DNA from: Nitrospira sp.
Lineage (GTDB): Bacteria > Nitrospirota > Nitrospiria > Nitrospirales > Nitrospiraceae
DNA length: 64,000 nucleotides
Direction of reading: 5' to 3'
Assembly: GCA_005116835.1 (NCBI GenBank)
Contig: SWDM01000019.1
Location: forward strand, 1-64,000
The notes beneath the pieces are model-generated. The model saw only the letters and a program-made list of their open reading frames with translations. It was not told the origin of the DNA and ran no database searches. The position numbers and the translations under genes were made by a program. This document shows positions 25,668 through 40,511 of the stretch, one piece after another (the stretch's first letter is position 1; the number at the start of each line of letters is the position of its first letter).

Positions 25668-25743
25668 TGGTGGCGGTGTCCCGGATTGAACGGGAGACCC
25701 GCGGCTTATGAGTCCGCTGCTCTACCAACTGAGCTACACCGCC
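25668..25743 (-). tRNA. tRNA with CAU anticodon (Met, or Ile after lysidine modification)
   Basis: On the minus strand GGCGGTG pairs with CACCGCC (acceptor stem), followed by a D arm GCTCAGTTGGTAGAGC, anticodon loop CTCATAA (anticodon CAT) and T arm TCCCG-TTCAATC-CGGGA, then A73 and an encoded CCA (25668-25670). Base 31/39 of the anticodon stem reads A-G, a mismatch. Elongator Met and Ile2 cannot be told apart here. The 5' half is inside the attachment repeat, so the upstream region belongs to the integrated element. Confidence 0.92.
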
Positions 25744-25747
25744 AGAA
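25703..25747. repeat. Attachment-site core, left copy
   Basis: 45 bp identical to 40467-40511 in the same orientation. It covers tRNA bases 1-41 and 4 bases before the tRNA. The intact tRNA is at this end, so the left junction keeps the 3' half of the tRNA from the chromosome. Confidence 0.9.
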
Positions 25748-25753
25748 CCAGTT

Positions 25754-26854
25754 TTATTGCATACTTGCGAAGGCTGCGTCAATTGAAGGGGCCTCATGTG
25801 TGCCCACTGTGCCCGCAATTGTGCCCGCGAGCTTCTGCGCGGCGGCTTTGAGGTCCGCCGGGCTCACGATATGGTAGCGATCGAACACCGCCCGGCTCTT
25901 GTGTCCCGTCATCGACATCGCCACCCCTTCAGAGATCCCTCGGTTCACCATGTTGCGGACGGCAGAGCGCCGCATATCGTGCCGGAGCATCCCGGTGAGT
26001 CCCACCGCCTTGCACGCGGTCGCCCAGCTTTTGCGGAAGTTGCGGATCTGGTTTCCGGCATGCGCCCCCTTCAGGTGTGGGAAGAGATAGGGAATGACGC
26101 GGTTCAGCCGCCGAGACAAGGAACGGACGCGCTCGATCTGTCCGGCGAGGAGGGCGCGAAGTTCCGGTGTCAGGTGGACCTCTCGCCCTTCACCGTTCTT
26201 CGTCGTGCCCGGTTCAAGCCGGAGTGTGCCCGCGTCCAGGTCCAGCTGGCTGAGTCGAAGCGCCAAGACTTCGCTCTGCATGCGCCAGCCGTACACGTAG
26301 GCAATGGTGATCGCGGCTTGCAGGTCCGGGCGCATGCGCCGCCGCACGGCCTCAAACTGTGCGGGCTCGAAAAATCCCGCACGCGGTTTGGCCTCGGTCA
26401 ATTTGTGGATGATCGGCATTTGGAGCAGCTTCTTGTTTTCGCAGGCGAGCCCAAGCATACGAATGAGCGTGGCGAGTTCTCGGTTAATCGTGCCATTGGC
26501 CCGGCCAGCCGCTTGTCGATGTTCCACGTAGCGAGCGGCCTGCGCCCCGTCGAGATCGACCACGCGCCGCCCCGCAAAGAACTTGCCCAACGGCGTCAAG
26601 CGTACCTCGGCTTCTTTGAGATCGCGGTCGCCTGACGTGGCATAATGTCGCGTGAGATCCTCCGCAATCTCCTCATAGCGGATGCGATCGGCCCTCTTGA
26701 TGATGGGCTGCCCCGTGACCGCCTTCCCCTCCCGCTCTTTCAGCATCTTTCCGGCGATGGTGTCCTTGTCTGTGCCGGTGCTCTCTCGGACGGGTCGGCC
26801 ATTCACGTAATACTTGATCCACCACACATTCCCCCGTTTGTACAACATGCCCAT
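25754..26854 (-). CDS. Tyrosine recombinase / site-specific integrase
   Basis: 366 residues. An N-terminal SAM-like core-binding domain (about 55-145) precedes a catalytic domain with all active-site residues in place: Arg191 (YGWRMQSEVL), Lys219 (TTKNGEGR), His292-Arg295 (LRHDMRRSAV), His318 (MTGHKSRAVF) and nucleophile Tyr327 (DRYHIV). It joins the element to the tRNA site. The stop is only 10 bases from the tRNA 5' end. The start overlaps the stop region of the small RHH gene upstream (26858-27010), so the two are one operon. Three TGTGCCC repeats lie in its 3' coding end and may be arm-type binding sites. Confidence 0.95.
   Translation of the reverse strand: MGMLYKRGNVWWIKYYVNGRPVRESTGTDKDTIAGKMLKEREGKAVTGQPIIKRADRIRYEEIAEDLTRHYATSGDRDLKEAEVRLTPLGKFFAGRRVVDLDGAQAARYVEHRQAAGRANGTINRELATLIRMLGLACENKKLLQMPIIHKLTEAKPRAGFFEPAQFEAVRRRMRPDLQAAITIAYVYGWRMQSEVLALRLSQLDLDAGTLRLEPGTTKNGEGREVHLTPELRALLAGQIERVRSLSRRLNRVIPYLFPHLKGAHAGNQIRNFRKSWATACKAVGLTGMLRHDMRRSAVRNMVNRGISEGVAMSMTGHKSRAVFDRYHIVSPADLKAAAQKLAGTIAGTVGTHEAPSIDAAFASMQ
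25799..25826. repeat. Three TGTGCCC direct repeats near the left end
   Basis: TGTGCCC at 25799, 25808 and 25820, inside the 3' end of the integrase gene. The last two, with 12-base spacing, recur near the right end at 40343 and 40355. The extended match is 23 of 26 bases (25807-25832 against 40342-40367). Candidate integrase arm-type sites. Confidence 0.55.
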
Positions 26855-26857
26855 GGT

Positions 26858-27010
26858 TCACCGTCCTTTCTTTGCGATGGTGCGTTGCTGAAATTCCCGC
26901 TCCACCAGACTACGGATAAACCCGCTCGCCGTGGTGCCGTGTTGGCGGAGCGCGTCGAGCTTGGCTTTGAGCGGGAGGGGGAGCTGAATGTTGAGTCGTT
27001 GCATTTGCAT
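26858..27010 (-). CDS. Short ribbon-helix-helix type protein
   Basis: 50 residues from an ATG at 27010: it begins MQMQRLNIQLPLPLKAKLDA and continues with TTASGFIRSLVEREFQQ. The pattern (basic beta strand RLNIQLP, then two amphipathic helices) is that of CopG/MetJ-like RHH repressors. A GGAGA site lies upstream. It overlaps the ribosome site of the integrase gene and is divergent from another RHH gene at 27120 across an operator-like palindrome. It may control integrase expression. Confidence 0.7.
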   Translation of the reverse strand: MQMQRLNIQLPLPLKAKLDALRQHGTTASGFIRSLVEREFQQRTIAKKGR

Positions 27011-27036
27011 GGTGTGAATCTCCTCTTTGGAAGAAT

Positions 27037-27058
27037 GGTCCCATGGTACTATGGGACC
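27037..27058. promoter_or_regulatory. Palindromic operator between divergent RHH genes
   Basis: GGTCCCAT (27037-27044) and ATGGGACC (27051-27058) form a perfect 8-bp inverted repeat with a 6-base spacer. A further half-site ATGGGACC lies at 27091-27098, just after TTGACA (27083-27088), a likely -35 element for the rightward gene. Occupancy could thus couple both directions. Confidence 0.65.
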
Positions 27059-27119
27059 TCAAATGGTGTCAATGGGGGCAAGTTGACATCATGGGACCGT
27101 TTGGCTAGGGTTCGCCGTC

Positions 27120-27296
27120 ATGAAAGATGATGAGTCTCCCGCTTCTAAGCAACAACTTGGAGTCCGGATCAATACGAGTCTCGTGGTTGAGGCCAAAGTG
27201 CTTGCAGTCCGTCAACAGCGCCGTCTCAATGACCTGATTGAAGAAGCCCTCCGCGATCTGCTCAAGAAGTACCGGGAGAAGTCCAAGGGGAAGTAA
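27120..27296 (+). CDS. Short ribbon-helix-helix (antitoxin- or repressor-like) protein
   Basis: 58 residues: MKDDESPASKQQLGVRINTS, then a helix (LVVEAKVLAVRQQRRLNDLI) and a C-terminal basic helix. The strand QLGVRINTS and helix pattern match RHH repressors and antitoxins. No toxin gene follows; the next gene encodes a membrane protein. A half-operator overlaps its promoter, which suggests it or its divergent neighbour represses it. Confidence 0.7.
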   Translation: MKDDESPASKQQLGVRINTSLVVEAKVLAVRQQRRLNDLIEEALRDLLKKYREKSKGK

Positions 27297-27326
27297 AGGC
27301 AAAGCTGGTTGGTTCTTCAAAGCATG

Positions 27327-28157
27327 CTGACCATGTGGCGCATAAGCATTCTGCTCTTGATCTGTCTCATTGCTGTTCCTGCATATTCAAATCCACCATC
27401 CCCAGCTCCATCGGAAACCAAGCAAAAACCACAATCCAGTACCGCCCAACCAAACCAGCGTCCCGATCAAGACCAAGGAGGCACCGTAGAACCGCCGCCT
27501 GTTATAAAAATTGCTCCATCCCTTGATGCTGATGTAAAAGCCACTGAGCCCGGAAAGAATCATAATCAAGAACCTGGGAGCGAATGGCGGAGCAGTCCTG
27601 AAATATGGATTGCTGTATTCACTGGCCTTTTGTGGGTAACCACTATAGCGCTTGCTGCCTATACTGCTCGTCTCTGGTCTGCCACCAATAAAAGCGCAGA
27701 GATGTTGCCGAAACTCGAACGCGCTTATGTGTTCGGTAAAGTGGAAGTTGTCGGATCTATAAAAAGCACCTTTCAAGGAACAACGGCTAACTTGGCCAGA
27801 ACCCTCTTTGTAAATCATGGGAAAACTCCAGCCATTATTATCAATATGAGTGGAGCGCCATATGTGATGAATACGGTCCCACAACAATTGGCTAGAACTC
27901 CCGACGACGATCGACGCCTTCCCGAAGGTTGGGTCATTGCGAGCGGAGAACAATTTCAGCGCCCTATCGCAATAGGATTGACAGATCCAGAGTTGAAGGC
28001 CATTGATGATGGTACGCTTAAGCTTTATTGTGCCGGACTTATTAGATATAAGGATATTCTCGGAGATGAGAGACAAACTGGGTATTGCTGGGAATATCTG
28101 CCGGAATATGATCGGTTTCAATTCTGTAAGGAAAGCCATCTGAACCATTACAATTAA
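27327..28157 (+). CDS. Membrane-anchored protein of mobile-element type
   Basis: About 276 residues from the ATG at 27327 (starts at 27309 and 27336 are also possible). A signal peptide or first helix (ISILLLICLIAVPAYS) is followed by a Pro/Gln-rich linker, a membrane helix (IWIAVFTGLLWVTTIALAAY) and a cytoplasmic-type domain with ERAYVFGKVEVVG, NHGKTPAIIINMSG and YCWEYLPEYDRFQFC. I recall such ERAY / NxGKTPA membrane proteins as common cargo in mobile elements; their role is unknown. Two-segment topology is inferred. Confidence 0.65.
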   Translation: MTMWRISILLLICLIAVPAYSNPPSPAPSETKQKPQSSTAQPNQRPDQDQGGTVEPPPVIKIAPSLDADVKATEPGKNHNQEPGSEWRSSPEIWIAVFTGLLWVTTIALAAYTARLWSATNKSAEMLPKLERAYVFGKVEVVGSIKSTFQGTTANLARTLFVNHGKTPAIIINMSGAPYVMNTVPQQLARTPDDDRRLPEGWVIASGEQFQRPIAIGLTDPELKAIDDGTLKLYCAGLIRYKDILGDERQTGYCWEYLPEYDRFQFCKESHLNHYN

Positions 28158-28301
28158 GGACGTTGCCAGAGCGAGTACGCATAGACAGTTAAAGGATACA
28201 CAGCCCCTTGACTGCCTGTTAAGTTCGGGATAGTCGCCAAAGTAAGACATACTCGCGCTGCTACAATGTTTCCACCATCCTGCTCGCCAAGGAGGTGTCC
28301 C

Positions 28302-28520
28302 ATGAAACCCATCCTTTGGTTCGTCCTCGGTCTGATAGTCGCCACTGGCGGCCAAGCACTGGCCCAATCGATCTACGATAGCTACGGCAACCCCAATCCC
28401 AATCGCGGCTATGCGCCTGCGCCAGGTGAGCCGATGATTCGAGACTCTAGAGGCTATCTCTACTCGGTCCCGCAACCGAGTCCGAATACCCAGTGGGACC
28501 GGCATCGGTCGCCCTGCTAA
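28302..28520 (+). CDS. Small secreted protein
   Basis: 72 residues after a strong AAGGAGG site. A signal peptide (ILWFVLGLIVATGGQALA) should be cut before QSIYDSYG. The mature part is short, Pro/Gly/Tyr-rich (NPNPNRGYAPAPGEPMIRD) and probably unstructured. No family known. Confidence 0.6.
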   Translation: MKPILWFVLGLIVATGGQALAQSIYDSYGNPNPNRGYAPAPGEPMIRDSRGYLYSVPQPSPNTQWDRHRSPC

Positions 28521-28617
28521 CCTCATTTCGCGCCTCCACCGACCAGGCCCGCAGTGCCACTGCCTCCGCTACTGCCACCTCCGCCTACTGGCATCCCCAT
28601 CGCGACGGCTTGCCTCG

Positions 28618-29118
28618 TTACGCAGCCTTATCCGGCCCAGTCGGCCACCCGTGCTCCCGGATACTGCCCTCAATGTAGATCCGCAGCATGTCGAGACGGT
28701 TCACGATGCCTTCGGCATTCAGCAAGCCTTGGCGAATGCCGGAGATCCAGGCGGCGCGGAGATTACGGTCGAGCTGCCCGTTGGGCATCAGGGGCGGGGC
28801 CAGCTTGTCGTAGCCATCGATGGCGTCACGCAGCTGGCGCGGCCCCGTGACACACAGCTCGCTCAATTCCCGAAACCAGCCGGCCACGGGTGCGGGCAGG
28901 GGAACTGCCGTCTTCGCCTGGAGCGACAGGAGCCGGTCCATGAACGGCTGATAAATCTTCTCGACGGCCTGCTCTTGTTTCGTGAGCCACTGCTTCGCCT
29001 GCTCATAGTGCGCCGGGCCGATGTCTTGGCGCATGCTCTCGACAATGTCTCGGTGTAGTGTCCTGCGTCTGTCAGCGTCGGCGGGGAGTCGTTTTTCTGC
29101 TTCATCGAGTGCGTTCAT
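28618..29118 (-). CDS. Packaging-module hypothetical protein
   Basis: 166 residues from the ATG at 29118 (MNALDEAEKRLPADADRR); GGAGG lies upstream. It is helical and charged with no membrane segment. The middle (YEQAKQWLTKQEQAVEKIYQ) may be a coiled coil. The first bases follow the preceding gene's stop with one base between, so it is in the TerS-to-28618 operon, the last gene of it. A virion-associated or scaffold-assembly role is possible but unsupported. Confidence 0.6.
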   Translation of the reverse strand: MNALDEAEKRLPADADRRRTLHRDIVESMRQDIGPAHYEQAKQWLTKQEQAVEKIYQPFMDRLLSLQAKTAVPLPAPVAGWFRELSELCVTGPRQLRDAIDGYDKLAPPLMPNGQLDRNLRAAWISGIRQGLLNAEGIVNRLDMLRIYIEGSIREHGWPTGPDKAA

Positions 29119-29119
29119 A

Positions 29120-29644
29120 TCAGTATCCTCCATGGTTGGTTTTAATGTCGGCGAGCGCGTCGAGAAATCGCAGCGCCGCCGTTTCCCCTGCGGGGCCATA
29201 GTGCTGGCGAATCGTGGCCCCCAAATCCTCGAACACCTCGCCCCAGCCCTCAGCACCGAACAGGGCGCGAGCGGCCAGCCCCGCCCCAGACATGCGGGCG
29301 TCATACGCCGAGCCCCAGTCCTGTCTCAGCGGGGCGAGAATGAGGTCATTGCGTGTGCGATCCGCCGCCTGCTCCTCGGTCTCGCCTGGCTGGGTCGGGA
29401 CCGGCCCCCCGATCGAGACCGATTCGGGCGTGTGCGAGAGAGTCGCCGGATAGGCGTTCTTATAGAGCCCATCAATGTAGGCCTCCGCAGCGGGATCGCG
29501 CCGTTTGAACGGCTCGAACATGGGGTGCGTCGGGTCGCTCATGATCTTGGCATACTCCTCGCGGGCCTGGAGCCCTGCCGAGGAGGGTGCGGCATCGGAA
29601 TCCATCACGGCGCTACTGTCTCCGACTGAAACATCGAAATCCAT
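29120..29644 (-). CDS. Scaffold-like phage protein
   Basis: 174 residues with a strong GGAGGA site. An acidic N-terminus is followed by MSDPTHPMFEPFKRRDPAAE, AYIDGLYKNAYP and a C-terminal LRQDWGSAYDARMSGAGLAA. This Lx-EWG-xxxDxx pattern resembles proteins encoded between terminase and portal genes in tailed phages, which I take to be scaffolding- or head-assembly-associated. It may help redirect helper-phage capsid assembly. This is a motif-level resemblance, not a firm assignment. Confidence 0.5.
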   Translation of the reverse strand: MDFDVSVGDSSAVMDSDAAPSSAGLQAREEYAKIMSDPTHPMFEPFKRRDPAAEAYIDGLYKNAYPATLSHTPESVSIGGPVPTQPGETEEQAADRTRNDLILAPLRQDWGSAYDARMSGAGLAARALFGAEGWGEVFEDLGATIRQHYGPAGETAALRFLDALADIKTNHGGY

Positions 29645-29653
29645 GTCTCCTCC

Positions 29654-29845
29654 TTAATTGACGCTATCGTCTGTGGTTTCAATCCATGCGCCTTCACCCC
29701 GTTGGGTGGGGCTCATGTACCGCTGAAATCGCGCAATGATTGCGCCGGTCGCATTGCGTCCGGCATGGGCCGTGACCCACACCTTCGCCACGATTTGTGC
29801 TTTACAGCGAGCCTCACTGGCTGAGAGTGTCGCAAACGCTGCCAT
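29654..29845 (-). CDS. Small basic hypothetical protein
   Basis: 63 residues (MAAFATLSASEARCKAQIVA), with AAAGGA upstream of the ATG. It sits between the scaffold-like gene and the coiled-coil gene with gaps of 9 and 23 bases, so it belongs to the same operon. No motif recognised. Confidence 0.5.
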   Translation of the reverse strand: MAAFATLSASEARCKAQIVAKVWVTAHAGRNATGAIIARFQRYMSPTQRGEGAWIETTDDSVN

Positions 29846-29868
29846 GGTTCTGTTCCTTTCGTGAGGGG

Positions 29869-30267
29869 TTAGGCGGTCGGTTGATTCGTTTTCAGGTGCC
29901 AGTCTGCCGTAATTTTCGCCAGCTGGGCTTCCGTGTCGCGCTTCAGTTGTTGCGCCGCCGCGACTTCGGCCCGCGTGGTCGTCAGCGTGGCGTCGAGCGC
30001 CTGCTGCTTGGCGCGATGCTCGCGATCGAGCTGCCCGTGCTGCGCTCGCAGGGCCTGATAATCCGCATCGAGCTGAGTGAAGACCCCTCGCAGGGCGGCT
30101 ACGTCGGCTTCAAGCTCAGCTTTCTGCTTCGTCACGGTCTCCAGGGCCGTGTGGGCAGCCATCGCCGATTCCAACACGTCGGCCAGTTTGGCGCGGGCGC
30201 TGCGCCAGTTGCGTTCCTCTTCTTCATCCTTCTTCAACACGGCCAGGGCCTGATTGAAATTCATCAT
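29869..30267 (-). CDS. Coiled-coil protein
   Basis: About 132 residues from the first of two ATGs (30267), with AAGGAGA upstream. The protein is one long helix with heptad repeats (LETVTKQKAELEADVAALRG, LREHLT-free), rich in Ala/Gln/Glu, no membrane segment. It is probably a structural or scaffolding component of the packaging module. Function unknown. Confidence 0.6.
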   Translation of the reverse strand: MMNFNQALAVLKKDEEEERNWRSARAKLADVLESAMAAHTALETVTKQKAELEADVAALRGVFTQLDADYQALRAQHGQLDREHRAKQQALDATLTTTRAEVAAAQQLKRDTEAQLAKITADWHLKTNQPTA

Positions 30268-30282
30268 GTCGTCTCCTTCCAA

Positions 30283-30663
30283 TTATGGGGTGAATGTGGC
30301 GTCATACTGCTGCCGTGATTGCGGATCGCCTAGCACGGCGTAGGCGTCATTGAGCTGTGTCATGGCCGCGTGGCTGTCACTGGCGGACGTGTCGGGATGG
30401 TACTGTTTCGCCAACGTTCGATAGGCCGCCTGGATCTCGTCGGCGGTTGCGGTTCGTGGGATGTTCAGCACGCCGTACCAATCGGGATTGACCCGGTTCC
30501 GCTCGCGCCGCCAGGCCATCGCCTCATGCGCGAGCTGTGTGCCGAGCTGCTCCAGCTCATCCAGGCTCACGTCCGTGACCAGTCGATGGAGACCCACTTG
30601 CACATAGAATCGGGCCGGGGTGCCAGTCCTGGCGAGTTCCATGGTCATTGCGCCCAGTCTCAT
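30283..30663 (-). CDS. J-domain protein in the packaging operon
   Basis: 126 residues. The C-terminal 70 residues are a J-domain (DWYGVLNIPRTATADEIQAA, then the HPD motif in YHPDTSASD) that should stimulate a DnaK ATPase. The N-terminal part is unique. The ATG overlaps the TerL stop by 4 bases (30660-30663), so it is co-translated with the terminase. A satellite-coded J-protein could recruit the host DnaK to phage assembly, which is inference. Confidence 0.85.
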   Translation of the reverse strand: MRLGAMTMELARTGTPARFYVQVGLHRLVTDVSLDELEQLGTQLAHEAMAWRRERNRVNPDWYGVLNIPRTATADEIQAAYRTLAKQYHPDTSASDSHAAMTQLNDAYAVLGDPQSRQQYDATFTP

Positions 30664-32369
30664 CGGGCCTCCTCGTGCGCTCGGGGCAGATAGCCCAGGA
30701 CACGCTCGCCGAAGCCGAAAGCGGATTCCACCGGCGCATGCGGATCGAGTGAAAAGGTGGATTCGACTTTCAGCGGCCCCGGCGTCGGCACCTCCATGAG
30801 ATCGCTCCCGAGGAGCCAGCCGAACAGATACGCCGCCGCGTCGCCCAGATCCGCAAAGGGGCTATTCGGTTTCTTCGGCCCGGTGCGATCGACTTGGCCG
30901 TCTGCGGTGATCGGATAAAACCATCGGCCCTCACAGGCCTGCACCAGCAACGCGGTGTCTGGTCCTGGCGCAATGAGCAACGGGGATTGTCCGCCTTCAT
31001 GGCGAGGGGCGAGGACTTTCAACACCGCTTCTTTTCTCGGCCCCCATCGGACGGCCCCTTTGACAATCCGCCCGCCCAAGCATTTCAGAATCATTTTCTC
31101 CGCGCTCTCGTGAATGGTGGCTTGCCCCGGCGTGGACATGTTCGGATCAATACAATGCACGAGGGACGCGCCGCCATCGAGCAAGGCCCAGGGCGCATGC
31201 TGATCAATCCATGGACGCACCTGCTGCTCAATCAGTTCGAGCGTCCCGATGCCGAGCCCATTGAGCGCCGCAAAGACCTGAATCGGTCCGCCCTGGCGTT
31301 GGCCTAGTACGGCGCTTGGGCTGTGACCGCCATCCCAGCCAATGCCTAAGAGAAATTGCGGATGCGGCGTCAAGGGCCATCGCGACACATGGACCGCCGC
31401 GTTAAATCCTTCCGCCACGGGCTGGCCTCGTTCGGCCATGACCCATTCACCACGCCCCAGCCGCGCGTCCATCGCCGAGTTGCCCGCAAAGGTCTTGCGA
31501 TGGACCGCTTGTTGTTCAGGCGAGAGTCGATCGGTAATGGGAATCTGAACGGCCTTCCGTGTCGGATGTCCCTGTCCTGCCACGTCGAAATGGGCATAGG
31601 GCCATAAGTCTGGGCTGCCGGGATTGGTCGCGGCCATCGCCACACGATGCCGCGTCTCTAAGCGAATCGAGGAGGAAATCGCTAAGCGCCATTGCGGGAG
31701 TTCAATCCCGAGGCCATCGGTCAAACTCGCCACGAGTTCTTCACCGACAACCATGTGACAGTCTTGGCGCAAGCGTTCAGCGGAGCTGGCATCTTTGCAG
31801 CCGACGAAGTTGCCGAGGAGCACTTCGTTGCCGCCGATGGAGAAGATCGCTTTGGTTCGATCATCTTTGATACTCCAGAGTCCGCCCCACATCGGAAGTT
31901 CTAACGCTTCACCGGTTTTCGCACTGGCGGACATCAGCGAATCATGCAACCACATCACTTTGAAGACGCCGGGATACTGCCCACGATGATGGAGCTCGGC
32001 ATTGATGAGCGCCGCCCCGGCGAGCAGGTGCGTCTTGCCGGTTCCGCGTTCCCCATACGCGAGGATTTCTTCCATGTCGCCGTCAATCGCCGCCGCCATC
32101 GCACACGAGGCCTTCAGTGCAAAGAGGACCGGGTGCACCACGTCTGGATAGTGCCCGTCCTTGAGCTGGCCGAGGATATATTCGACCGCCACATCCGCCG
32201 CCGCATCCGTGCCGAGCATGTGCCTTCCCACTAAGAAGATGCTGCGGCCTGCGGCGTCTAGTCCATCGCCGAGCGGGTGCTTCGTCGGCAGATCCAGCAA
32301 TACGGCGCAGCACAGCACCCCAGCCCGATGGCCTAAGCGTTCCACAATTGTTTTCAGGGCGCGACTCAT
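30660..32369 (-). CDS. Phage terminase large subunit (packaging ATPase/nuclease)
   Basis: 569 residues. The ATPase half has a Walker A GERGTGKT (106-113) and a Walker B ending in CHMVVGEELV with the catalytic Glu pair (210-211), plus a coupling-type segment ATNPGSPDLW. The C-terminal nuclease half has an acidic residue in GIGWDGGHSP (Asp346), another in WALLDGGASL and a last one in FADLGDAAAYLF, as in RNase-H-like terminase nucleases. It cuts and pumps DNA into proheads. The ATG overlaps the TerS stop (ATGA, 32366-32369). Present without capsid or portal genes, so it should package the element into a helper's capsid. Confidence 0.88.
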   Translation of the reverse strand: MSRALKTIVERLGHRAGVLCCAVLLDLPTKHPLGDGLDAAGRSIFLVGRHMLGTDAAADVAVEYILGQLKDGHYPDVVHPVLFALKASCAMAAAIDGDMEEILAYGERGTGKTHLLAGAALINAELHHRGQYPGVFKVMWLHDSLMSASAKTGEALELPMWGGLWSIKDDRTKAIFSIGGNEVLLGNFVGCKDASSAERLRQDCHMVVGEELVASLTDGLGIELPQWRLAISSSIRLETRHRVAMAATNPGSPDLWPYAHFDVAGQGHPTRKAVQIPITDRLSPEQQAVHRKTFAGNSAMDARLGRGEWVMAERGQPVAEGFNAAVHVSRWPLTPHPQFLLGIGWDGGHSPSAVLGQRQGGPIQVFAALNGLGIGTLELIEQQVRPWIDQHAPWALLDGGASLVHCIDPNMSTPGQATIHESAEKMILKCLGGRIVKGAVRWGPRKEAVLKVLAPRHEGGQSPLLIAPGPDTALLVQACEGRWFYPITADGQVDRTGPKKPNSPFADLGDAAAYLFGWLLGSDLMEVPTPGPLKVESTFSLDPHAPVESAFGFGERVLGYLPRAHEEAR

Positions 32370-32827
32370 GCCGGTCCTTTCTCCGTCGGTGCCCGCTTCC
32401 CCGGCAACACCCGTAGGGGCGACTCCTTCAACCGCTGTAACGCCGCCAGGCCAGCCCCATGCCCGTCCAGCTGAAGCAAGATTTCATTCTGCCTCTCCTG
32501 CGCCTTCGTCGCATGATCCGCCGAGGCCCCGGACGTGGCCTTTAAGATCATGTCGAGCCTCTTGAAGTCGGGCCGCTTCTCCGTTTTCAAGATCGTCACC
32601 ACTTGTGCCCGCACCCGTAAACAATCGTCCACGGTGGCAAACTCGTTCGTGTCGATGCTGTCGGGGATGCGAAGCTGCCGCTGCGCCTGCACGGCGTTGA
32701 AGTTGATCGCTTTGGCCCGGCTCGGATCGGGGTCGTGATGATGGCAACTCGTGGCCCCGTGCGGGATGCGGAACCGACACGGCTGGCCATCCCTCGACTT
32801 GTGCCCATTCTCGCCACATAACTTCAA
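32366..32827 (-). CDS. Terminase small subunit-like protein with zinc motif
   Basis: 153 residues from a TTG at 32827 with AGGTG upstream. The N-terminus has CGENGHKSRDGQPCRFRIPH and CHHHD, a likely zinc site seen in many mobile-element proteins. The remainder is helical (LRVRAQVVTILKTEKRPDF). The role as TerS is inferred from its direct overlap with the terL gene and its length. TerS recognises the packaging site and recruits TerL. Confidence 0.65.
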   Translation of the reverse strand: MKLCGENGHKSRDGQPCRFRIPHGATSCHHHDPDPSRAKAINFNAVQAQRQLRIPDSIDTNEFATVDDCLRVRAQVVTILKTEKRPDFKRLDMILKATSGASADHATKAQERQNEILLQLDGHGAGLAALQRLKESPLRVLPGKRAPTEKGPA

Positions 32828-32950: not shown

Positions 32951-33352
32951 TCATCGCCCGTCCTTCCAGGTCTCAATGAGGCGGTCGAGATCCACTCTGT
33001 CAAACAACAACTTCCTCAGTTCCCCTGCATGGGGGAGGGGAATCCTCACCCGTTGTAGGCTGCCAGCGGCTTCGAGATCCCTTACCGTCCAGGGCGAGAG
33101 GCCGAGGTAGCTGGCGGCGGTCGGTAGATCCAAGAGCCTTGGACTGATAGGAACCACGGTTCTTGTAACCTGTGTTCCCTCGCGGTTGCCGCTCCTAGAC
33201 GGCGTTCCCTTCATGCCTGTGCCCAGGCTGTGCCCAGGCTCAGGCTTCCCGAAGATGCCCACATCGCCCTTTCGTGGCCTACCAGGCCTGCCCCTTCGGC
33301 TGGCGGGAACAGGGGAGGGGGCTGGCGCTGTGGCTGTTATGGTCTCGTTCAT
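32951..33352 (-). CDS. AlpA/excisionase-like HTH protein
   Basis: 133 residues. The first 70 are Pro/Arg/Gly-rich and unstructured (SPVPASRRGRPGRPRKGD is AT-hook-like). The C-terminal 60 residues form a MerR/AlpA-type helix-turn-helix (LDLPTAASYLGLSPWTVRDL, then RVDLDRLIETW). Such proteins act as excisionases or activators of integrase and late genes. No good ribosome site is visible at the ATG. It lies between the packaging operon and the iteron array. Confidence 0.65.
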   Translation of the reverse strand: MNETITATAPAPSPVPASRRGRPGRPRKGDVGIFGKPEPGHSLGTGMKGTPSRSGNREGTQVTRTVVPISPRLLDLPTAASYLGLSPWTVRDLEAAGSLQRVRIPLPHAGELRKLLFDRVDLDRLIETWKDGR

Positions 33353-33480
33353 TGCCGACTCAATTACTCAAGAATCCTTGGCGCTCAAAGGCGGCTTCCC
33401 GCGTGTCCCTGGCGAAAGCCCATCTTTCCCGCTTTGCTTCCCAGTGGCTCAGGCAGAGCATGCCCCTCTTTCTCTTCCGA

Positions 33481-33650
33481 GTTGTTGCACTTGTTGCATT
33501 CCCTCCCTAAAGGGAGGGAAATGTTGCAACGATTGATTGTTGCAGCCATTGTTGCAATGCAACAGGTTGAAAAATAATCGAGTTTTGCATACTGCAACGA
33601 TGTTGCAACGATCTGCCATCGATGGCATTTTTTTTGAGGGCTGCAACGAT
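33481..33650. other. Iteron-type candidate replication origin of the element
   Basis: In 170 bases GTTGCA or its reverse complement recurs about nine times: 33484, 33493, 33523, 33539, 33551-33563 (palindrome GTTGCA-A-TGCAAC), 33593, 33602 and 33641, several extended to TGCAACGAT. An AT-rich tract (33566-33592) and a perfect inverted repeat TTCCCTCCCT/AGGGAGGGAA (33499-33520) are included. It directly abuts the 3' end of the primase-helicase gene, the usual place for a satellite origin. GCCATCGATGGC followed by eight Ts (33615-33635) could end a plus-strand transcript. Confidence 0.65.
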
Positions 33651-35647
33651 CATTTAGACCTCAACACCGTCCATTGGGGATCGTGATAATCCTCACCCAC
33701 TTGCTGCCATTTGTGGCCTTTGCCCCGTGACAGCGCCGACTTGACCGTGGAAAGGGGAATATCCAGGTCGTCGCTAATGCCTTTGGCGGTCCTGAGCCTG
33801 CCGTCTTCGAGGAGATTCCTGATTCTGGACGGGGTCGCCAACTTCTTCTGAAGCGCGGGCACGTTGGCGAGGTCTTCAGCGTCCACCCGGACCTGCTCGG
33901 GTGAAAAGGTGAGGCGGAAGCCTAGGGGCGGATGCTTCGAGCTAAAGTTGTGCTTCGTGTGAGACAAGGCCAGGGTGACGGGGTGCTCCTCATCGGCCTT
34001 GCTGAGTTCCCAGACATTGCGAGCTAACTCTCTGAAGAACACGGTCCCAAAGGCCGTGCGCTCTTGCCCTTCCACGACAGATTTTGACGTATGGGCCAGG
34101 ACCAACGACGCGCAGTTGATCTTTCGTAAGGCCCGCTGAAGGGTGATGGCCGCCTCCGGTGAACTGAGTTCAGCTCCGCAGGCCATCGCCGCACTATCGA
34201 CGATCACGAGCTTGACGTGATGCTCCGCCACAAAGGCCGCAATCGTATGGGCTTCTTGATGGAGCGGCAGCTCGCAGCGTCGATAGAAAGGCGTATGCCG
34301 GGAGAACTCCGGGTGTCCGGCTTGGAGGGCCTTGAGTCGCCCGCCCAAGGTCTCAGCATTCAACTCCCAATCCAGATACAAGACTGAGACCTTCAGCCCC
34401 GCAACCCCGGCATGACAGCCCCCATGGCAGGCCACGAGGGCGAAGAAAAGCGCAAGGTAGCTTTTGCAGCTCCCGCCGGGCGCATAGATCAAGGTTTGAT
34501 GCCCTTGGTAGATGATCGGGTTCAGGAGAAATGGCACCGTGGCCGAGGCCGAGGGAATCAAGGTGATGATGGGCTCGCCCTGTCGATGGTGCTTGAGGAC
34601 GAGACTGCACGCCCGCTGAAGCAGGATTTTCCACGGAACGGACACCGCCACGGCTTTCAAGCTACCGGCCAGCTTGCCTTGCCCGCTATCCGATTGCAGA
34701 CCGAGTTTGCATCCGCTCAAAATTTCCGTCGCGCCGATCACGATCGCAACTTCTGCATAGACGCTATCTCGTGCATCGGTCAATCGCTCAAAAGTGATGG
34801 ATACACTATGCTTCGGTGAACGGACGGTATAGTGGCCAGCCACTTCGGTAACGACTAACTCATCGGCACCATTCTGTTTGATTGCCTCATGCGTTGCCTG
34901 TTTTTCTTTCCACTTTTGCCACCAGGCCGCCAGCGTACTGAATCGAGGGTCATCTAAGGTGAGCCGTTCGAGTTTCGGCCAGCTCTGTTCCACGTCATGG
35001 CCGGGCACGAGGAGCCAGTCATCAAGGCCTGCCTTCGCTCCGTGAATATCTGGCAGCATCACGAACTGAACCGACGCCCGGCGCTGTTGTAGGTCTTTGG
35101 CGAGAGCGAAGAACCCGGCGAGGATCTGCATCTCTTTGCCCTCGTGCCAGGCGTCTGAATCAGGGCAGATCAGGACCGAGCGGTTTGGCCACTGAAATTC
35201 GTCCAACATGGGGAGGGTAAGCGTGTCGCCATTGTCGAGCGTCGATCGCCAGCACCAGACCCCGCCAATACCCGCCGTGGTGAGCCCATGCTGACAGGCT
35301 GCCGCCGCTTTCTTTTCGCCTTCTGTGATTACGAGTTCTGTTGTGGAATGTCGCGCGACGTTCTGCCAGCCAAGGAGCGGGGCAAGGTACAGATGAGGCG
35401 ATGAGTCCGGCGGTTGCCAGTACTTCATCTTGCGCCCCTGGGCATCCACGACTTCCGGTACGAACTTGAGACGGGAGAAGCAATTGAGGGTTCCATCGAG
35501 GCGGAAGTAGGGGATGGCATAGGCGGACGTGGCCGACTTGATCGGGATCTCTTTCGGTCGGACGCCTTCGCAGTGCATGCGCGTGATCGTGTCATCCGTG
35601 AGGCCGGATCGGCGAAGGTCAGAAATCTGGTCTGGTGACAATGCCAT
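33650..35647 (-). CDS. Primase-helicase (DUF3854 + RepA-like AAA ATPase)
   Basis: 665 residues from the ATG at 35647 (GTG at 35650 overlaps the upstream stop). The N-terminal half is a DUF3854/Toprim-like primase: LVITEGEKKAAAA (about 107-118) and ICPDSDAWHEG. The C-terminal half is a RecA-fold RepA-type helicase: Walker A YAPGGSCKSYLAL (389-401) and DWE in VLYLDWELNAETL, then LAHTSKSVVEGQ. A cysteine stands where the P-loop normally has glycine before Lys396. A winged-helix tail (TAKGISDDLDIPLSTVKSAL) ends it. It probably starts replication at the adjacent iterons, like the alpha protein of P4 or Rep of PICIs. Confidence 0.85.
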   Translation of the reverse strand: MALSPDQISDLRRSGLTDDTITRMHCEGVRPKEIPIKSATSAYAIPYFRLDGTLNCFSRLKFVPEVVDAQGRKMKYWQPPDSSPHLYLAPLLGWQNVARHSTTELVITEGEKKAAAACQHGLTTAGIGGVWCWRSTLDNGDTLTLPMLDEFQWPNRSVLICPDSDAWHEGKEMQILAGFFALAKDLQQRRASVQFVMLPDIHGAKAGLDDWLLVPGHDVEQSWPKLERLTLDDPRFSTLAAWWQKWKEKQATHEAIKQNGADELVVTEVAGHYTVRSPKHSVSITFERLTDARDSVYAEVAIVIGATEILSGCKLGLQSDSGQGKLAGSLKAVAVSVPWKILLQRACSLVLKHHRQGEPIITLIPSASATVPFLLNPIIYQGHQTLIYAPGGSCKSYLALFFALVACHGGCHAGVAGLKVSVLYLDWELNAETLGGRLKALQAGHPEFSRHTPFYRRCELPLHQEAHTIAAFVAEHHVKLVIVDSAAMACGAELSSPEAAITLQRALRKINCASLVLAHTSKSVVEGQERTAFGTVFFRELARNVWELSKADEEHPVTLALSHTKHNFSSKHPPLGFRLTFSPEQVRVDAEDLANVPALQKKLATPSRIRNLLEDGRLRTAKGISDDLDIPLSTVKSALSRGKGHKWQQVGEDYHDPQWTVLRSK

Positions 35648-35952
35648 CACAACTTTGGCTCCAGGATGCGATGGCCAAGGAGGTGCAATTCATCCCTGAC
35701 GATCGGCCACACCGACAACTCGACGAACCAAACACCGTGTTTCGGAAGCCAACCGCCGACGGTTCGATGCTCTGTCCCAACCTGATACACCGCAAGCAGC
35801 GCTTTGAGCCGAGAGACAAGCGCCGCGTCGTACTCAAAGCGTAACCGGACCACGGTATCGAGGCCGACACGACTCTGAAACGGTTGAAACCGATCGACAT
35901 GAATGGTGAGCGTAGGGGCTTGCGTGCCGGTTTGTGGTTTGCTAGAGTTCAT
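35647..35952 (-). CDS. Hypothetical protein, upstream partner of the primase-helicase
   Basis: 101 residues (MNSSKPQTGTQAPTLTIHVD), mixed alpha/beta with RLRFEYDAALVSRLKALLAV and LPKHGVWFVELSVW. The stop TGA overlaps the start region of the primase-helicase gene, so the two are translationally coupled. GGAG lies upstream. Possibly a primase accessory subunit; no family recognised. Confidence 0.6.
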   Translation of the reverse strand: MNSSKPQTGTQAPTLTIHVDRFQPFQSRVGLDTVVRLRFEYDAALVSRLKALLAVYQVGTEHRTVGGWLPKHGVWFVELSVWPIVRDELHLLGHRILEPKL

Positions 35953-36018
35953 TGCCGTTCACTCCGAGTGTTTACCGCTGTCTGGGATTCGCCTCCCGGT
36001 CAGCGGTTTTTTATTGTG

Positions 36019-36207
36019 TTACAACCGCACAGGCTCGCTTTCGCTCGGCACCCGCCGATACAGTCGGCGTAATTCCTCCACGACCTTGGGCCCGTATACT
36101 CGCCAGCCGTTCCGATCCCGTTCGGCCTTCAAGACTCCCTTCGCCCCCAATCGCCGAATTGTTGACGGATGAATGCCGGTCTGTTCTGCCACCTCTCCGA
36201 TAAGCAT
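36019..36207 (-). CDS. MerR-like helix-turn-helix regulator
   Basis: 62 residues, one short winged-helix: LIGEVAEQTGIHPSTIRRLG followed by AERDRNGWRVYGPKVVEELR, as in MerR N-domains and phage excisionases. A strong GGGAGGG site precedes the ATG at 36207. It diverges from the CGNR-type gene at 36350, so it may be the lysogeny or replication switch of the element. Confidence 0.75.
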   Translation of the reverse strand: MLIGEVAEQTGIHPSTIRRLGAKGVLKAERDRNGWRVYGPKVVEELRRLYRRVPSESEPVRL

Positions 36208-36349
36208 GTGGTGCCCTCCCTTTTTGTTGCCAGCAAGATTGCAATTCCTGCTTAAGCTAGGCTATTGTATAGTTGATGGCGTATTAATCAGTCAATGCGC
36301 AACTGCGCAAAACTGCCAGAGTTGCGACTTATCTGTGGGAGGGTATCCA
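36208..36349. promoter_or_regulatory. Divergent control region with TGCGCAA direct repeats
   Basis: 142 bases between the divergent MerR-like gene and the zinc protein gene. TGCGCAA occurs twice in tandem (at about 36297 and 36305), next to an AT-rich stretch, and could be the operator of the MerR-like protein. No exact promoter was assigned. Confidence 0.45.
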
Positions 36350-37069
36350 ATGGCGGGAAAAGTTTATACTAACTGGTTATCCGCAACTGAGAAGAAGGCG
36401 GCACTCAAGCGTATCGGCTATCATCGGTACAGGGGGAGTAGGGCAGAACTAGAGGTGGATCTGTGGAACGTCTTGAATTGGTTTGTTCAGTTAGGGAACT
36501 CGTGCACACCATTCAGTGACATGCCTATGGCAGAAGTGGAGTTGTTGACGCAAGAGTACCGAGCACTACAGGAAGAAGATCACCCGCCTGGCGTTCCCCA
36601 TGGGCTTGTTCAAAATATCGTGACGATCAGTGACCTTGAGAAATTCCGAGCGACCGTCCGTCTACACACGGAGCAACTAGCCGATACGGGTCAGACGAGG
36701 TTCGGCCCGTTCACGCTCGAAAGAAGTGTCTACATTCTCGACCATGGTGAATCGGAGATCGTTGTAGGAGAGTACGTTGAGCCCTTTCATGGGCAAGGGT
36801 TGCTGCTGCTCCTGTCTAGCTTGGTGCAGCGAGTGGGGCTTGCGATTCGTCGATGTCCGCATTGTCGAGAGGTCTTTCTCAAACCCAGGCGTGACGCCAA
36901 GGCCTGTTCCCGGACCTGCCAAGCTAACGCGTATGCGCGTCATCAGCGGGAAGCTGCACAGAGGAAGAAGGTGCGCATGAGTGAGAAACGGAAGAATCGG
37001 GGACGAAATGTTGGCAAGAGTCAGAAGCGACAACCTGGCGCCACGATTCAGCGGCTGGGGAAAGGCTAG
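36350..37069 (+). CDS. CGNR/zinc-finger-type protein
   Basis: 239 residues from the ATG at 36350 (GGGAGGG upstream; the longer frame from 36173 overlaps the divergent gene). The C-terminal part holds a zinc finger RRCPHCREVFLKPRRDAKAC followed by SRTCQANAYARHQREA, that is, RCxxC...CSxxC plus RxxR, as in CGNR-type fingers. A very basic tail (KRKNRGRNVGKSQKRQ) follows. The N-terminal 150 residues are of unknown type. Likely a DNA- or RNA-binding regulator in the satellite control region. Confidence 0.7.
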   Translation: MAGKVYTNWLSATEKKAALKRIGYHRYRGSRAELEVDLWNVLNWFVQLGNSCTPFSDMPMAEVELLTQEYRALQEEDHPPGVPHGLVQNIVTISDLEKFRATVRLHTEQLADTGQTRFGPFTLERSVYILDHGESEIVVGEYVEPFHGQGLLLLLSSLVQRVGLAIRRCPHCREVFLKPRRDAKACSRTCQANAYARHQREAAQRKKVRMSEKRKNRGRNVGKSQKRQPGATIQRLGKG

Positions 37070-37234
37070 AAAAGTTGGGAGGCGGGGAACACGTGATGTT
37101 GGGTCACTGAACAACTACGTGAACGCCACTCGGGCTAAGAAGTGGCTGCAAGTGGGGTAAGAAATTGAATAACAATGACAAATCATCGTAATTCTGCAAA
37201 GGTGAAATTGACAGATGGCTAGACCAGGGAGCGG

Positions 37235-37264
37235 TTGCAAGACGCTGAAGTGGCACCTTATAAT
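37235..37264 (+). promoter_or_regulatory. Probable sigma70-type promoter for the cargo operon
   Basis: TTGCAA (37235-37240), 18-base spacer, then a perfect TATAAT (37259-37264). It lies about 93 bases upstream of the start codon at 37357. The rest of the 287-base gap to the zinc-protein gene shows no other gene. Confidence 0.6.
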
Positions 37265-37356
37265 GACCGAGACCCAACTAGTTCATCTGCGTGTGCGCAT
37301 TGTTTTTGTGCTAACTATCCTGACATGAACAACTCTTTCTAGGGACGACGGGTGCA

Positions 37357-37998
37357 ATGAACCTAACCGAGTCTCGCCCTCAAAGCCTAAACATTGTTTT
37401 TTTATACGACACTGTCGAGGTCAAGAAACTCCCGCTTGATCCGATAAAGTCCTCCACTAAGTTTGACATGATCTCCCTTCTTCCCAATGACGTTATGGGA
37501 GGAGTTCTTGTCCTCGCAAGCGATCCTCTCAAGGCTAAAATTACCATTCAGCCAAACAGGCTTGAATATGTCGATGAGCAGCACGATATGCCATTTCACG
37601 AGAGAGGCCTAGGTGAGCTGTGGAATGTCCTTCGATGCATGCAGAGTCTTTCGATTCAGTCATTTGGGATCAATTTTTTCCTCCTCAATACATCGACCCA
37701 TGAGAAGGGGGCTGGTGGGTTCATAGCAGAGCACTACATAAAGAATGCAGCGGCATTGGAAGCACAGTTCGCTCAACCGATGCTTTCGGCCTCAGCTCGA
37801 ATTTTGTTCGGCACACAAGATCACTACAGGGATCTCCGAATAACGCCAATTGAGATTGGGAGCAAGGATCTTCAGTTTCAGTACCATCTTCACCAGGATA
37901 TACGTATCGCTGAAACAGAGAAACTTATCCAGACAATCACGCAGTCATTCGAAGCTAGTTGGAAGGAATGTCGAGAGTGGATCGCGAAACTTCCATAG
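37357..37998 (+). CDS. Cargo gene 1: unknown protein
   Basis: 213 residues beginning MNLTESRPQSLNIVFLYDTV. The protein is soluble with a mixed alpha/beta pattern (VLVLASDPLKAKITIQPNRL; GFIAEHYIKNAAALEAQFAQ) and resembles no family I know. Its 3' end overlaps the next gene by about 31 bases. Codon use looks more AT-rich than in the chromosome around, which suggests recent transfer. First gene of a three-gene set ending in a PIN nuclease. Confidence 0.6.
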   Translation: MNLTESRPQSLNIVFLYDTVEVKKLPLDPIKSSTKFDMISLLPNDVMGGVLVLASDPLKAKITIQPNRLEYVDEQHDMPFHERGLGELWNVLRCMQSLSIQSFGINFFLLNTSTHEKGAGGFIAEHYIKNAAALEAQFAQPMLSASARILFGTQDHYRDLRITPIEIGSKDLQFQYHLHQDIRIAETEKLIQTITQSFEASWKECREWIAKLP

Positions 37999-38573
37999 TC
38001 GGGAACCTGGCCTTGGCCGAACAGTGGCCCAAATTCTCCGACACCGAGGCGGAGCCAGCGCTTAATAGCCAGGTCGCCCCGAACCGCACAACAGCTGCGG
38101 CCAGAAGCTTAAGATTGGTTACCCCCGCTGTATCAAGTGCGAACAAGTCACGGGAACCCGGAGAGAAGTTGGAAACTCTCAAGATACGGGTGCGTGAACT
38201 ATACGACGAGTTTATGAAGTGGCCAGGGTCCTATAATCAACTCCTGTTATCAGGCAGTCTGGATTATTGCCGGTCAGTCATTACTCAGTTGAAGCAAAGC
38301 TCTGGCGAATTGCAGGATAAGATGCTGCCTCTCATTAACGACTACTATAGTCAATGTCAGGGAATCTCTCGGCAGTATCAGAAAGAATTGAACCTGCGAG
38401 CCAAGAGTACATCGGCTTCAGTTACGACATTTATTGAAGAACGATCCTCCGTCAGACGGTTGAACCTGCAAGCGTTACAAGACAAGTTTGAATTGCTTCA
38501 AGAACGCTGCGCCGATGTTCACGTGTATCCCCGCTTAGTAGACCTTGATCCTGCCGACATCCCTGCTGAATAG
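37968..38573 (+). CDS. Cargo gene 2: unknown helical protein
   Basis: About 201 residues from the ATG at 37968 (TTG at 37959 and GTG at 37977 are alternatives), overlapping gene 1 by 31 bases, which implies translational coupling. The first 65 residues are low complexity, the rest is helical with coiled-coil periodicity (LKIRVRELYDEFMKWPGSYN, LNLQALQDKFELLQERCADV). No family known. Its stop is 5 bases before the PIN gene. Confidence 0.6.
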   Translation: MSRVDRETSIVGNLALAEQWPKFSDTEAEPALNSQVAPNRTTAAARSLRLVTPAVSSANKSREPGEKLETLKIRVRELYDEFMKWPGSYNQLLLSGSLDYCRSVITQLKQSSGELQDKMLPLINDYYSQCQGISRQYQKELNLRAKSTSASVTTFIEERSSVRRLNLQALQDKFELLQERCADVHVYPRLVDLDPADIPAE

Positions 38574-38578
38574 ATACC

Positions 38579-39196
38579 ATGCAGCGCTTGGAAGGCTTTT
38601 CTCAGATAGCCTATGACACCAACGTACTAGTTTACTATTGCTTCGAAGTGAGCATCCCAGATGCAAATCCTAAACGTATCATTCGCGCCCAGCTGACACC
38701 TCACACTAAGGCTATTACGGAAACTCTCAAGTCCAATGGCCAAAAGATAACCACAATCCTTGACGCCTACAGAGAGCTTGAGGATGTTGTAAACAAAGTA
38801 GTCGTAAAAGAACTGGACACCCCCAGGGCAAAGCAGATGCTAGGAATCGCAGAGAATGCACCCGTGCGACAGCAAACCAAGTTGCATGTACAGACCGCGG
38901 TTGCGAGGCACATTAAGAAGCTCAAAGCTGCAAGTTGGTTTGTCTTGAATCACGAATTCACTCCTTCGCCAACCGCATTTGCCAGCCTAAGGAGGTTCTT
39001 TGATTCTATACCCCTTGCAGACCTCGGGGATTCTGATCCAGCCTCAGCCGTAGATATTAAGTTAGTCAATTTCGGTGCCGTCTCCCAGATCCCTCTGGTA
39101 ACAAATGATGGAGGAATCCACAAATTCGCTGGTCGGTTACAGGCCGCTGGGCTTGCATACCGTATCTATGACCTAAAGGCGCTCAACCCTTCCTAA
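38579..39196 (+). CDS. Cargo gene 3: PIN-domain nuclease
   Basis: 205 residues. The N-terminal PIN signature IAYDTNVLVYYCF (catalytic Asp about residue 13) and the C-terminal acidic SAVDIKLVNFG, then IPLVTNDGGIHKFAG fit the metal-binding acid set. A helical middle includes AYRELEDVVNKVVV with a likely third acid. PIN proteins cut RNA, as toxins or defence effectors. It is closely followed by no further gene and shares the promoter at 37235 with genes 1 and 2. Neither neighbour resembles a classic antitoxin. Confidence 0.75.
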   Translation: MQRLEGFSQIAYDTNVLVYYCFEVSIPDANPKRIIRAQLTPHTKAITETLKSNGQKITTILDAYRELEDVVNKVVVKELDTPRAKQMLGIAENAPVRQQTKLHVQTAVARHIKKLKAASWFVLNHEFTPSPTAFASLRRFFDSIPLADLGDSDPASAVDIKLVNFGAVSQIPLVTNDGGIHKFAGRLQAAGLAYRIYDLKALNPS

Positions 39197-39290
39197 CTTG
39201 AGGTTGGGGAAATCCCTCGGTAACCTCTACCCGCTGTTTCTGCCTACCTCTTCCGCCAGTCCCACGGCGGCACCGGCTGCGGATCTATCA

Positions 39291-39947
39291 TCATTTCTTT
39301 TGAGGGCGACCTAAGCCCAATTTGTCAGCGAGCCCAGAATGGACAATCTCCTCAAGCAGGTGACGTGCCACGATCTTCGCAGTGAGTCCTCCGATGTGTG
39401 TGGCTTGCCCTGTATCTAGTCTGACTGTACCACTAGAACTGTCTTCGACTTCCTCATAGCCTACCGTATAGAGCTTACCCCCATTTAGAATCGTTACCGA
39501 GCCGGTGTGTTTCAGCAAGTCGCGCGGCCTGATGAGTGTGATCTCTTCTTTGTAACGGTCAAAGTGACTGTCGTGCGTTACGAGGGGGATATTTTCTACG
39601 CGTGCAATGCAGGCATAGAGCAAGTCTGCGCCGTGAAGATGGCTGAAAACGTCATACAGCTTGAGGTCGTGCACCTCCTTCAGAAACCGCTTAGTCACAT
39701 GATAGACCTCGGTATTCTCATAAAATAGCGGGGCGCGTCTAAAAACTGAAGGCCCTTGTTGCTTCTCTCGATATCGGCGTGATTGCGTAGCCTGAAACTC
39801 AAAAAATATTAGACCGGGAACAACCCAGCAGGCCTTATCTTCGTCATGCAGATTCATGAAAAACGAGTAGCAACTGAAGTGCTCAACATCATCGGAGTTC
39901 ACGATGGAGGTGAGAACACTGGCGTCGAGTGCGTATCGTTTTCTCAT
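39291..39947 (-). CDS. PIN-domain protein with C-terminal extension
   Basis: 218 residues. PIN motifs: YALDASVLTSIVN (Asp8), GLIFFEFQAT (Glu) and HGADLLYACIARVENIPLVT, then THDSHFD (last acids). The 80 residues after the PIN core (GKLYTVGYEEVEDSSSGTVR and GLADKLGLGRPQKK) are unlike usual VapC toxins. It converges on gene 3 with 94 bases between the stops. No antitoxin gene adjoins it; its promoter must be in 39948-40111. Confidence 0.7.
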   Translation of the reverse strand: MRKRYALDASVLTSIVNSDDVEHFSCYSFFMNLHDEDKACWVVPGLIFFEFQATQSRRYREKQQGPSVFRRAPLFYENTEVYHVTKRFLKEVHDLKLYDVFSHLHGADLLYACIARVENIPLVTHDSHFDRYKEEITLIRPRDLLKHTGSVTILNGGKLYTVGYEEVEDSSSGTVRLDTGQATHIGGLTAKIVARHLLEEIVHSGLADKLGLGRPQKK

Positions 39948-40111
39948 CAGTGCCAGCCTTCAGTCAGTGTGTTGCACGGGAAAGCGACGGGAAGGGCGAA
40001 TCGAGAAGGGCATCGGAAGCCTCGCAGGGAGGCGTATTGTATGAAGGGAGCGATCGAACTGCAAGGCGAGACTTGGGGAGTAGTGGCATGAAGAGGAACA
40101 GCCAGTGAGCC

Positions 40112-40327
40112 CTATTCCCATCTGCCGCGTACCTCTAGATCGGTGCCTTGGAGTTTTATGGATAAGGTAAAGAATCGATCATCGTCGGTTTCAGATACTT
40201 CCAGCGTGGAAGTGGGAGACCAGCAAATCGCAGTTGAGATATCGCCAGGGTTTAACCGTAACGTTCTCCCGTCCAGCAAGCGCATTATGCCATCTGGTTC
40301 GACTTCATGAAGAGATACCTCTTCCAT
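40112..40327 (-). CDS. Small beta-rich protein at the right end
   Basis: 71 residues from the ATG at 40327 (GGAG lies 5 bases upstream). It reads LHEVEPDGIMRLLDGRTLRL, then NPGDISTAICWSPTSTLEVS, a small beta-barrel type sequence. The longer frame to 40444 crosses the right-end integrase repeat and was not accepted. Probably part of the element; function unknown. Confidence 0.6.
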   Translation of the reverse strand: MEEVSLHEVEPDGIMRLLDGRTLRLNPGDISTAICWSPTSTLEVSETDDDRFFTLSIKLQGTDLEVRGRWE

Positions 40328-40341
40328 AACTTCTCCAATCC

Positions 40342-40367
40342 CTGTGCCCAAGATTGTGCCCGCGAGC
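40342..40367. repeat. Right-end copy of the TGTGCCC repeat pair
   Basis: TGTGCCC at 40343 and 40355, in the same orientation and with the same 12-base spacing as the left-end pair at 25808 and 25820; 23 of 26 bases match. It lies about 100 bases from the right attachment core. Candidate integrase arm-type sites. Confidence 0.55.
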
Positions 40368-40466
40368 AGCTTTATACCACCTCCCGCCACCCCCCCGTCA
40401 CCCCATGAGGCAATAAGAAACCCCTTGTAACCATTGAGGATCACAAGGGGTTCTGATTGCTAACTA

Positions 40467-40511
40467 GGCTTATGAGTCCGCTGCTCTACCAACTGAGCTA
40501 CACCGCCAGAA
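40467..40511. repeat. Attachment-site core, right copy (5' tRNA fragment)
   Basis: Identical to 25703-25747. It is a tRNA fragment (bases 1-41) with no 3' half. Beyond it (40512 onward) lies the original chromosomal sequence that once preceded the tRNA. Confidence 0.9.

Follow-up and report, generated by a model that had tools for sequence, protein, structure and literature searches.

Nitrospira drives nitrite oxidation and comammox, and to our knowledge the phages of this genus are poorly known. A block of 14,764 bp between perfect 45-bp direct repeats in a Nitrospira chromosome (contig SWDM01000019.1) raises the question of what kind of element carries genes for DNA packaging and none for building a virion. 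It was analysed within a stretch of 64,000 nucleotides, the 64-kb window, to which all coordinates refer. A first-pass annotation had interpreted the block as a helper-dependent phage satellite and knew of no described satellite from Nitrospirota; in agreement with the latter statement, no paper on phage satellites together with Nitrospirota was found among the open-licence papers searched.

The two repeat copies (25703-25747 and 40467-40511) are identical at 45 of 45 positions and their starts are 14,764 bp apart, and it was thus verified that a tRNA-derived repeat bounds a 14.8-kb block. Copy 1 covers the 5′ half of a tRNA-Met(CAT) gene from the anticodon loop to the 5′ end (25668-25743, minus strand; ARAGORN), which places the element upstream of the tRNA. 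This tRNA gene is the integration target and is intact on the integrase side. The integrase gene has the same reading direction and stops 10 bp before the tRNA 5′ end. Because the 5′ half is used for integration, the tRNA-Met has been separated from the sequence that originally preceded it and now immediately follows the integrase gene. Integration at the 5′ half of a tRNA (here 25668-26854) was likewise observed for the related elements of genomes G214 and G174. Once joined, the flanks of the element gave an alignment that spans the junction in G002 (84% over 609 columns), and likewise in G015 and G003. The ferritin-like gene that borders the element on its far side is located, in other Nitrospira genomes, a few hundred bases from tRNA-Met. 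Judged from these alignments, the window locus is an occupied site, in contrast to the empty sites of other Nitrospira genomes.

The 64-kb window contains the motif TGTGCCC-N3..5-TGTGCCC at exactly three places, and 100 shuffles contained none. One N5 doublet is found near each repeat (25808-25826, at a position conserved in the relatives, and 40343-40361, by motif scan; both plus strand), and an N4 doublet detected by the same scan lies inside the alpA gene (33218-33235, plus strand). The elements of Nitrospira sp. RSF11 and G214 have doublets at the same three places, those of G174 and G005 have two each, and a single doublet was found in about 300 kb of other sequence. The end doublets are candidate integrase arm sites, while the one inside alpA may link the binding of integrase or AlpA to excision control. 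The internal doublet is conserved across elements and codes for part of a conserved AlpA motif (GHSxGT).

The genes for integration, regulation and replication were assigned by Pfam and PHROGs matches. The tyrosine integrase (366 aa; 25754-26854, minus strand; PF00589, E 2e-14) reads toward the tRNA and matches the integrases of RSF11 (G009), G214 and G174 at 56-58%. It is followed by a gene for a small protein of 50 aa (26858-27010, minus strand), which is conserved in all five elements known so far (50-84% identity), and by an Arc-like ribbon-helix-helix (RHH) regulator of 58 aa (27120-27296, plus strand; PHROG Arc-like repressor, E 3e-6; 53% in G214). An AlpA-like HTH regulator or excisionase of 133 aa (32951-33352, minus strand; HTH_17, E 2e-4; PHROG excisionase, E 3e-6) is also conserved in all five. 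Between alpA and the primase gene an iteron cluster (TTGCAACGAT; 33481-33650) forms a probable replication origin; repeat counting yielded 13 copies of TTGCA/TGCAA in 191 bp (33470-33660), compared with an average of 0.44 per 191 bp over the whole window. The primase-helicase (666 aa; 33650-35650, minus strand) combines DUF3854 (PF12965, E 2e-15) with AAA_25 (PF13481, E 4e-13). By gene arrangement, the element thus has the AlpA/Stl-type regulator beside a replication module that is typical of PICIs. An open reading frame for a 101-aa protein (35647-35952, minus strand) and a MerR-family regulator of 62 aa (36019-36207, minus strand; PF00376, E 7e-11) come next.

The element carries several further genes. 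A probable membrane protein of 282 aa (27309-28157, plus strand) and three variable cargo genes (213, 204 and 205 aa; 37357-39196, plus strand) have no relatives in the other elements, and a PIN-domain protein of 218 aa (39291-39947, minus strand; PF01850, E 9e-9) was also classified as cargo. A protein of 298 aa (36173-37069, plus strand) matches an HNH/NinG-like zinc region weakly at its C-terminus (PHROG_1271, E 5e-4), and a 110-aa protein at the distal end (40112-40444, minus strand) has 46% identity to a G174 protein over residues 40-109.

The large subunit of the terminase (TerL, 569 aa; 30660-32369, minus strand) contains a Walker A motif (GxRGTGKTH) and conserved acidic residues in its nuclease half, which are invariant alignment columns. 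Its match to PHROG_2 is weak (E 6e-6) and a comparison with PDB sequences gave no match, but the assignment is settled by 61-65% identity to phage genes that are situated just ahead of portal, scaffold and MCP; identity to TerL of the other elements is 54-93%. The small subunit (TerS, TTG start; 32366-32827, minus strand) was recognised solely via its relatives and has 57% identity to a gene of phage G032 (L003:8887-9396). These full-length relatives belong to podovirus-like phages in IMG/VR, of which the best is IMGVR_UViG_3300021440_000054 (G032) with 42,171 bp; its ends overlap, and it is thus probably a complete circular assembly. It carries TerS, TerL, portal, scaffold, MCP and tail genes, the names of portal, scaffold and tail genes being read from gene order and sequence, and its MCP is related to annotated pelagiphage MCPs, e.g., that of HTVC028P (25%, E 2e-13). 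Further contigs of the same phage family were recovered from IMG/VR.

Behind terL three small genes were found. A J-domain (DnaJ) protein of 126 aa (30283-30663, minus strand; PF00226, E 9e-21) is encoded directly behind it, with 50% identity to an RSF11 protein and a shorter relative in G005; a J-domain is present in only two of the elements. A coiled-coil protein of 137 aa (29869-30282, minus strand; 44% to RSF11) was considered as a lysis protein and not accepted, its one spanin-like match being weak (E 0.01), and no homology to a phage coiled-coil gene was found. The 63-aa protein p63 (29654-29845, minus strand) is a homologue of a phage gene behind the capsid gene (42-53% to three phages, 57% to G214).

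Neither Pfam nor PHROGs identified a gene for portal, capsid, tail or lysis in the element, and searches for MCP and portal with the related phage's own proteins were also negative. The first-pass annotation had reported the same absence and had named capsid, portal or tail genes recovered by a sensitive HMM search as evidence against its reading; such a search was run and none was found. Integration together with an own integrase, regulator and replication genes, and the lack of virion structural genes, are two of the features that define a phage satellite, next to packaging and transfer that depend on a helper phage. The integrase, excisionase-like gene, iterons, primase-helicase and terminase genes that had been listed were all recovered, and the frames described as intact are open, with dN/dS values of 0.12 for terL and 0.13 for the integrase gene indicating purifying selection. 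The gene list was nevertheless incomplete, as the J-domain gene behind terL and a scaffold domain had been missed.

This domain, whose presence in satellites is new here, is part of a 174-aa protein (29120-29644, minus strand). Residues 26-63 match the C-terminal end of the capsid scaffold of the related phages (53% over 38 aa, E 5e-12). A profile of the scaffold C-terminal domain was built from the phages, and in each of the five elements it recognised one protein only (E 6e-21, 4e-16, 4e-15, 3e-11 and 6e-7, the first being the window protein), while the best match outside these five among 1,426 ORFs had an E-value of 0.67. No confident match among the satellite proteins resulted from a profile that covered scaffold residues 1-225, and none of the proteins of the five satellites matched the phage MCP or portal. 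The domain is at the end of the phage scaffold versus near the start of the satellite protein. For the remainder of the satellite protein a weak similarity to the central scaffold was obtained (hhalign E 1e-4, probability 56%), which is regarded as a lead. AlphaFold predicted a helix-turn-helix for residues 21-65 (pLDDT about 87-94) and gave poor confidence elsewhere, and a comparison of the model with the PDB returned nothing at E below 1. The idea that the C-terminal domain is the most conserved part of the scaffold was dropped, because among the phages it is no better conserved than the rest. The neighbouring gene, p171 (28618-29133, minus strand), accompanies the scaffold-domain gene in all five elements (28-42% identity). 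Its AF2 model is a confident helical bundle (mean pLDDT 89.8), which matches generic helical folds only and was discarded as a clue to function. A p171 fragment was seen in G016.

Searches with TerL, covering one genome per species, revealed four relatives of the element in other Nitrospiraceae genomes, i.e., in RSF11, G005, G214 and G174, and three of them are complete (15.3-15.6 kb). RSF11 belongs to the same GTDB genus as the window's host, which supports the assignment of the host to Nitrospira. The RSF11 element occupies the same tRNA-Met (15,573 bp, 44-bp repeat), the G214 element a tRNA-Arg (15,394 bp, 44-bp repeat), and the G174 element a tRNA-Thr (15,328 bp, 41-bp repeat), while the G005 contig ends inside the element. 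All four elements with both ends are therefore 14.8-15.6 kb long, with perfect att repeats of 41-45 bp at tRNA-Met (two), tRNA-Arg and tRNA-Thr. Common to all five are alpA, terS, terL, the scaffold-domain gene, p171 and the 50-aa gene, and an integrase gene is present in all four in which that end is available. The packaging block is constant, the primase region varies, and the cargo is different in each; the cargo zones of RSF11 (an OLD/GajA-like gene) and G005 (a PDC-S50 relative) match defence-related models. The G174 element has a transposase-like gene inserted between primase region and alpA (L025 12291-13376). Four relatives with the same backbone indicate a family of intact elements and not one decayed prophage. 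No member was found in IMG/VR with TerL, p171 and AlpA as markers, using short peptide patterns that can miss relatives. In one IMG/VR contig (L085 1702-4548) a relative of AlpA adjoins a TerS-like gene and a different terminase that looks lambda-type; this contig is possibly another satellite class or a phage.

Taken together, the element is very probably an integrated phage satellite of a family so far found in Nitrospiraceae, with its own TerS-TerL pair, a scaffold mimic that would redirect the helper capsid, and a presumed podovirus-like helper. The helper-dependent reading of the first-pass annotation was thus supported at the sequence level. Upon helper infection or induction, AlpA would switch the element on, which would then excise and replicate. 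Its TerS would recognise the element's own packaging site and its TerL would dock on the helper portal, while the helper would supply tails, portal, capsid and lysis. In SaPI1, the protein CpmB has a C-terminal motif in common with the 80alpha scaffold; it occupies the capsid site to which that scaffold binds, and it changes capsid architecture from T=7 to T=4 (PMC6893505). By analogy, the scaffold-domain protein is likely to compete with the helper scaffold for the helper capsid protein. The outcome would probably be smaller heads, which could accommodate about 15 kb but not the about 42 kb of the helper. At 35-37% of the length of the 42-kb phage contig, the satellites have a size that would be compatible with a smaller head.

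Alternatively, the satellite might be packaged into helper heads of normal size, and the scaffold-domain protein might poison helper assembly without setting head size. Without size redirection, SaPIs are known to end up in large heads (PMC6893505), and the pairing with p171 in every element is what an interference pair might look like. The uniform lengths noted above argue indirectly against this scenario, and it is regarded as rather unlikely.

A very improbable explanation is that the element is a decaying deletion derivative of a related podovirus that has lost its portal, capsid and tail genes. Full-length relatives do exist, and TerS, TerL, p63 and the scaffold C-terminal domain are common to satellites and phages. 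However, the shared genes have a different order, namely terL, p63 and scaffold domain in the element versus terL, portal, scaffold, MCP and p63 in the phage, so the element is not a collinear subset of a phage genome. Gene content also differs, as the integrase, AlpA, RHH regulator, p171 and primase have no counterparts in the phages compared. A plain deletion of a full-length relative, which the first-pass annotation had named as a finding against its own view, was thus not encountered. Decay is also at variance with the finding of five elements that are of near-equal size, share a backbone, occupy different tRNA genes and have open frames under purifying selection. Satellites and phages are intermixed in the TerL tree, in which well-supported branches force at least two changes, and this would fit an exchange between them. 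A domesticated packaging island (gene-transfer-agent-like), or a defence island turning terminase parts against phages, would agree with the defence-like cargo of the relatives, but it is hardly credible in view of the att repeats, empty sites, different tRNA targets and own replication module of a mobile element, and of the absence of the structural genes of a gene transfer agent.

The helper of the satellite probably belongs to the podovirus-like phage family typified by G032. The host genome and the 32 genomes of the genus yielded neither a helper nor a relative of the MCP, and 396 genomes of the phylum yielded only a distant MCP, in G376. A contig of a Nitrospiraceae MAG (G421:C60) shares with G032 a 142-aa gene (77%), a lysozyme-like gene (55%) and a 206-aa gene (67%), which indirectly suggests that Nitrospiraceae are hosts of these phages. 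This phage contig (L107, L108) is circular, has a length of 38.5 kb and includes an integrase-like gene. A CRISPR-like connection of G032 to Nitrospiraceae was rejected, because there were three weak matches of 34-49 bp without a repeat array around them. The satellite family and its candidate helper phage family represent a testable host-phage-satellite system in Nitrospira.

Described satellite families are P4-like elements, PICI, cfPICI, PLE and PICMI, and VEIMEs and tycheposons have been proposed (PMC11389934). The related phages around G032 share TerS, TerL, p63 and the scaffold C-terminal domain with the element, but they are full phages of about 42 kb with portal, scaffold, MCP and tail genes. 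P4-like elements, PLE and PICMI have the helper-dependent logic in common with it, and P4 (Sid) and PLE remodel capsids; family searches recognised no relatives of the remodelling proteins of these three groups in the element. P4 relies on the helper terminase, whereas the element has its own TerS-TerL, and PICMIs lack capsid-remodelling genes. The capsid-forming PICIs (cfPICIs) also encode TerS and TerL, and they carry their own portal, protease, MCP and connectors (PMC10690885), none of which was detected here, which sets the element apart from them. Gram-negative, AlpA-regulated PICIs share the integrase, AlpA-type regulator, primase-helicase and cargo, but the element has its own TerS, TerL and scaffold-domain gene in addition. 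It is quite possible, if tentative, that it represents a distinct satellite class, in which an own TerS-TerL pair would choose the DNA and a rearranged mini-scaffold, with the C-terminal domain in front and a central-scaffold-like segment behind, would reset the helper head size. SaPI1 and the type 1 SaPIs (PICI) are likewise about 15 kb long, with their own integrase, regulator, replication module and TerS. As with SaPI CpmAB, a protein shares the C-terminal segment of a scaffold, here that of the related phages as presumed helpers; this segment is the capsid-binding one in CpmB, and a second gene lies beside it, CpmA there and, by analogy, p171 here. In contrast to SaPI1, the element also encodes TerL, has the scaffold domain near the N-terminus and resides in a Nitrospirota host, and it would thus be an independent case of capsid piracy via a scaffold mimic, here with a satellite-encoded large terminase.
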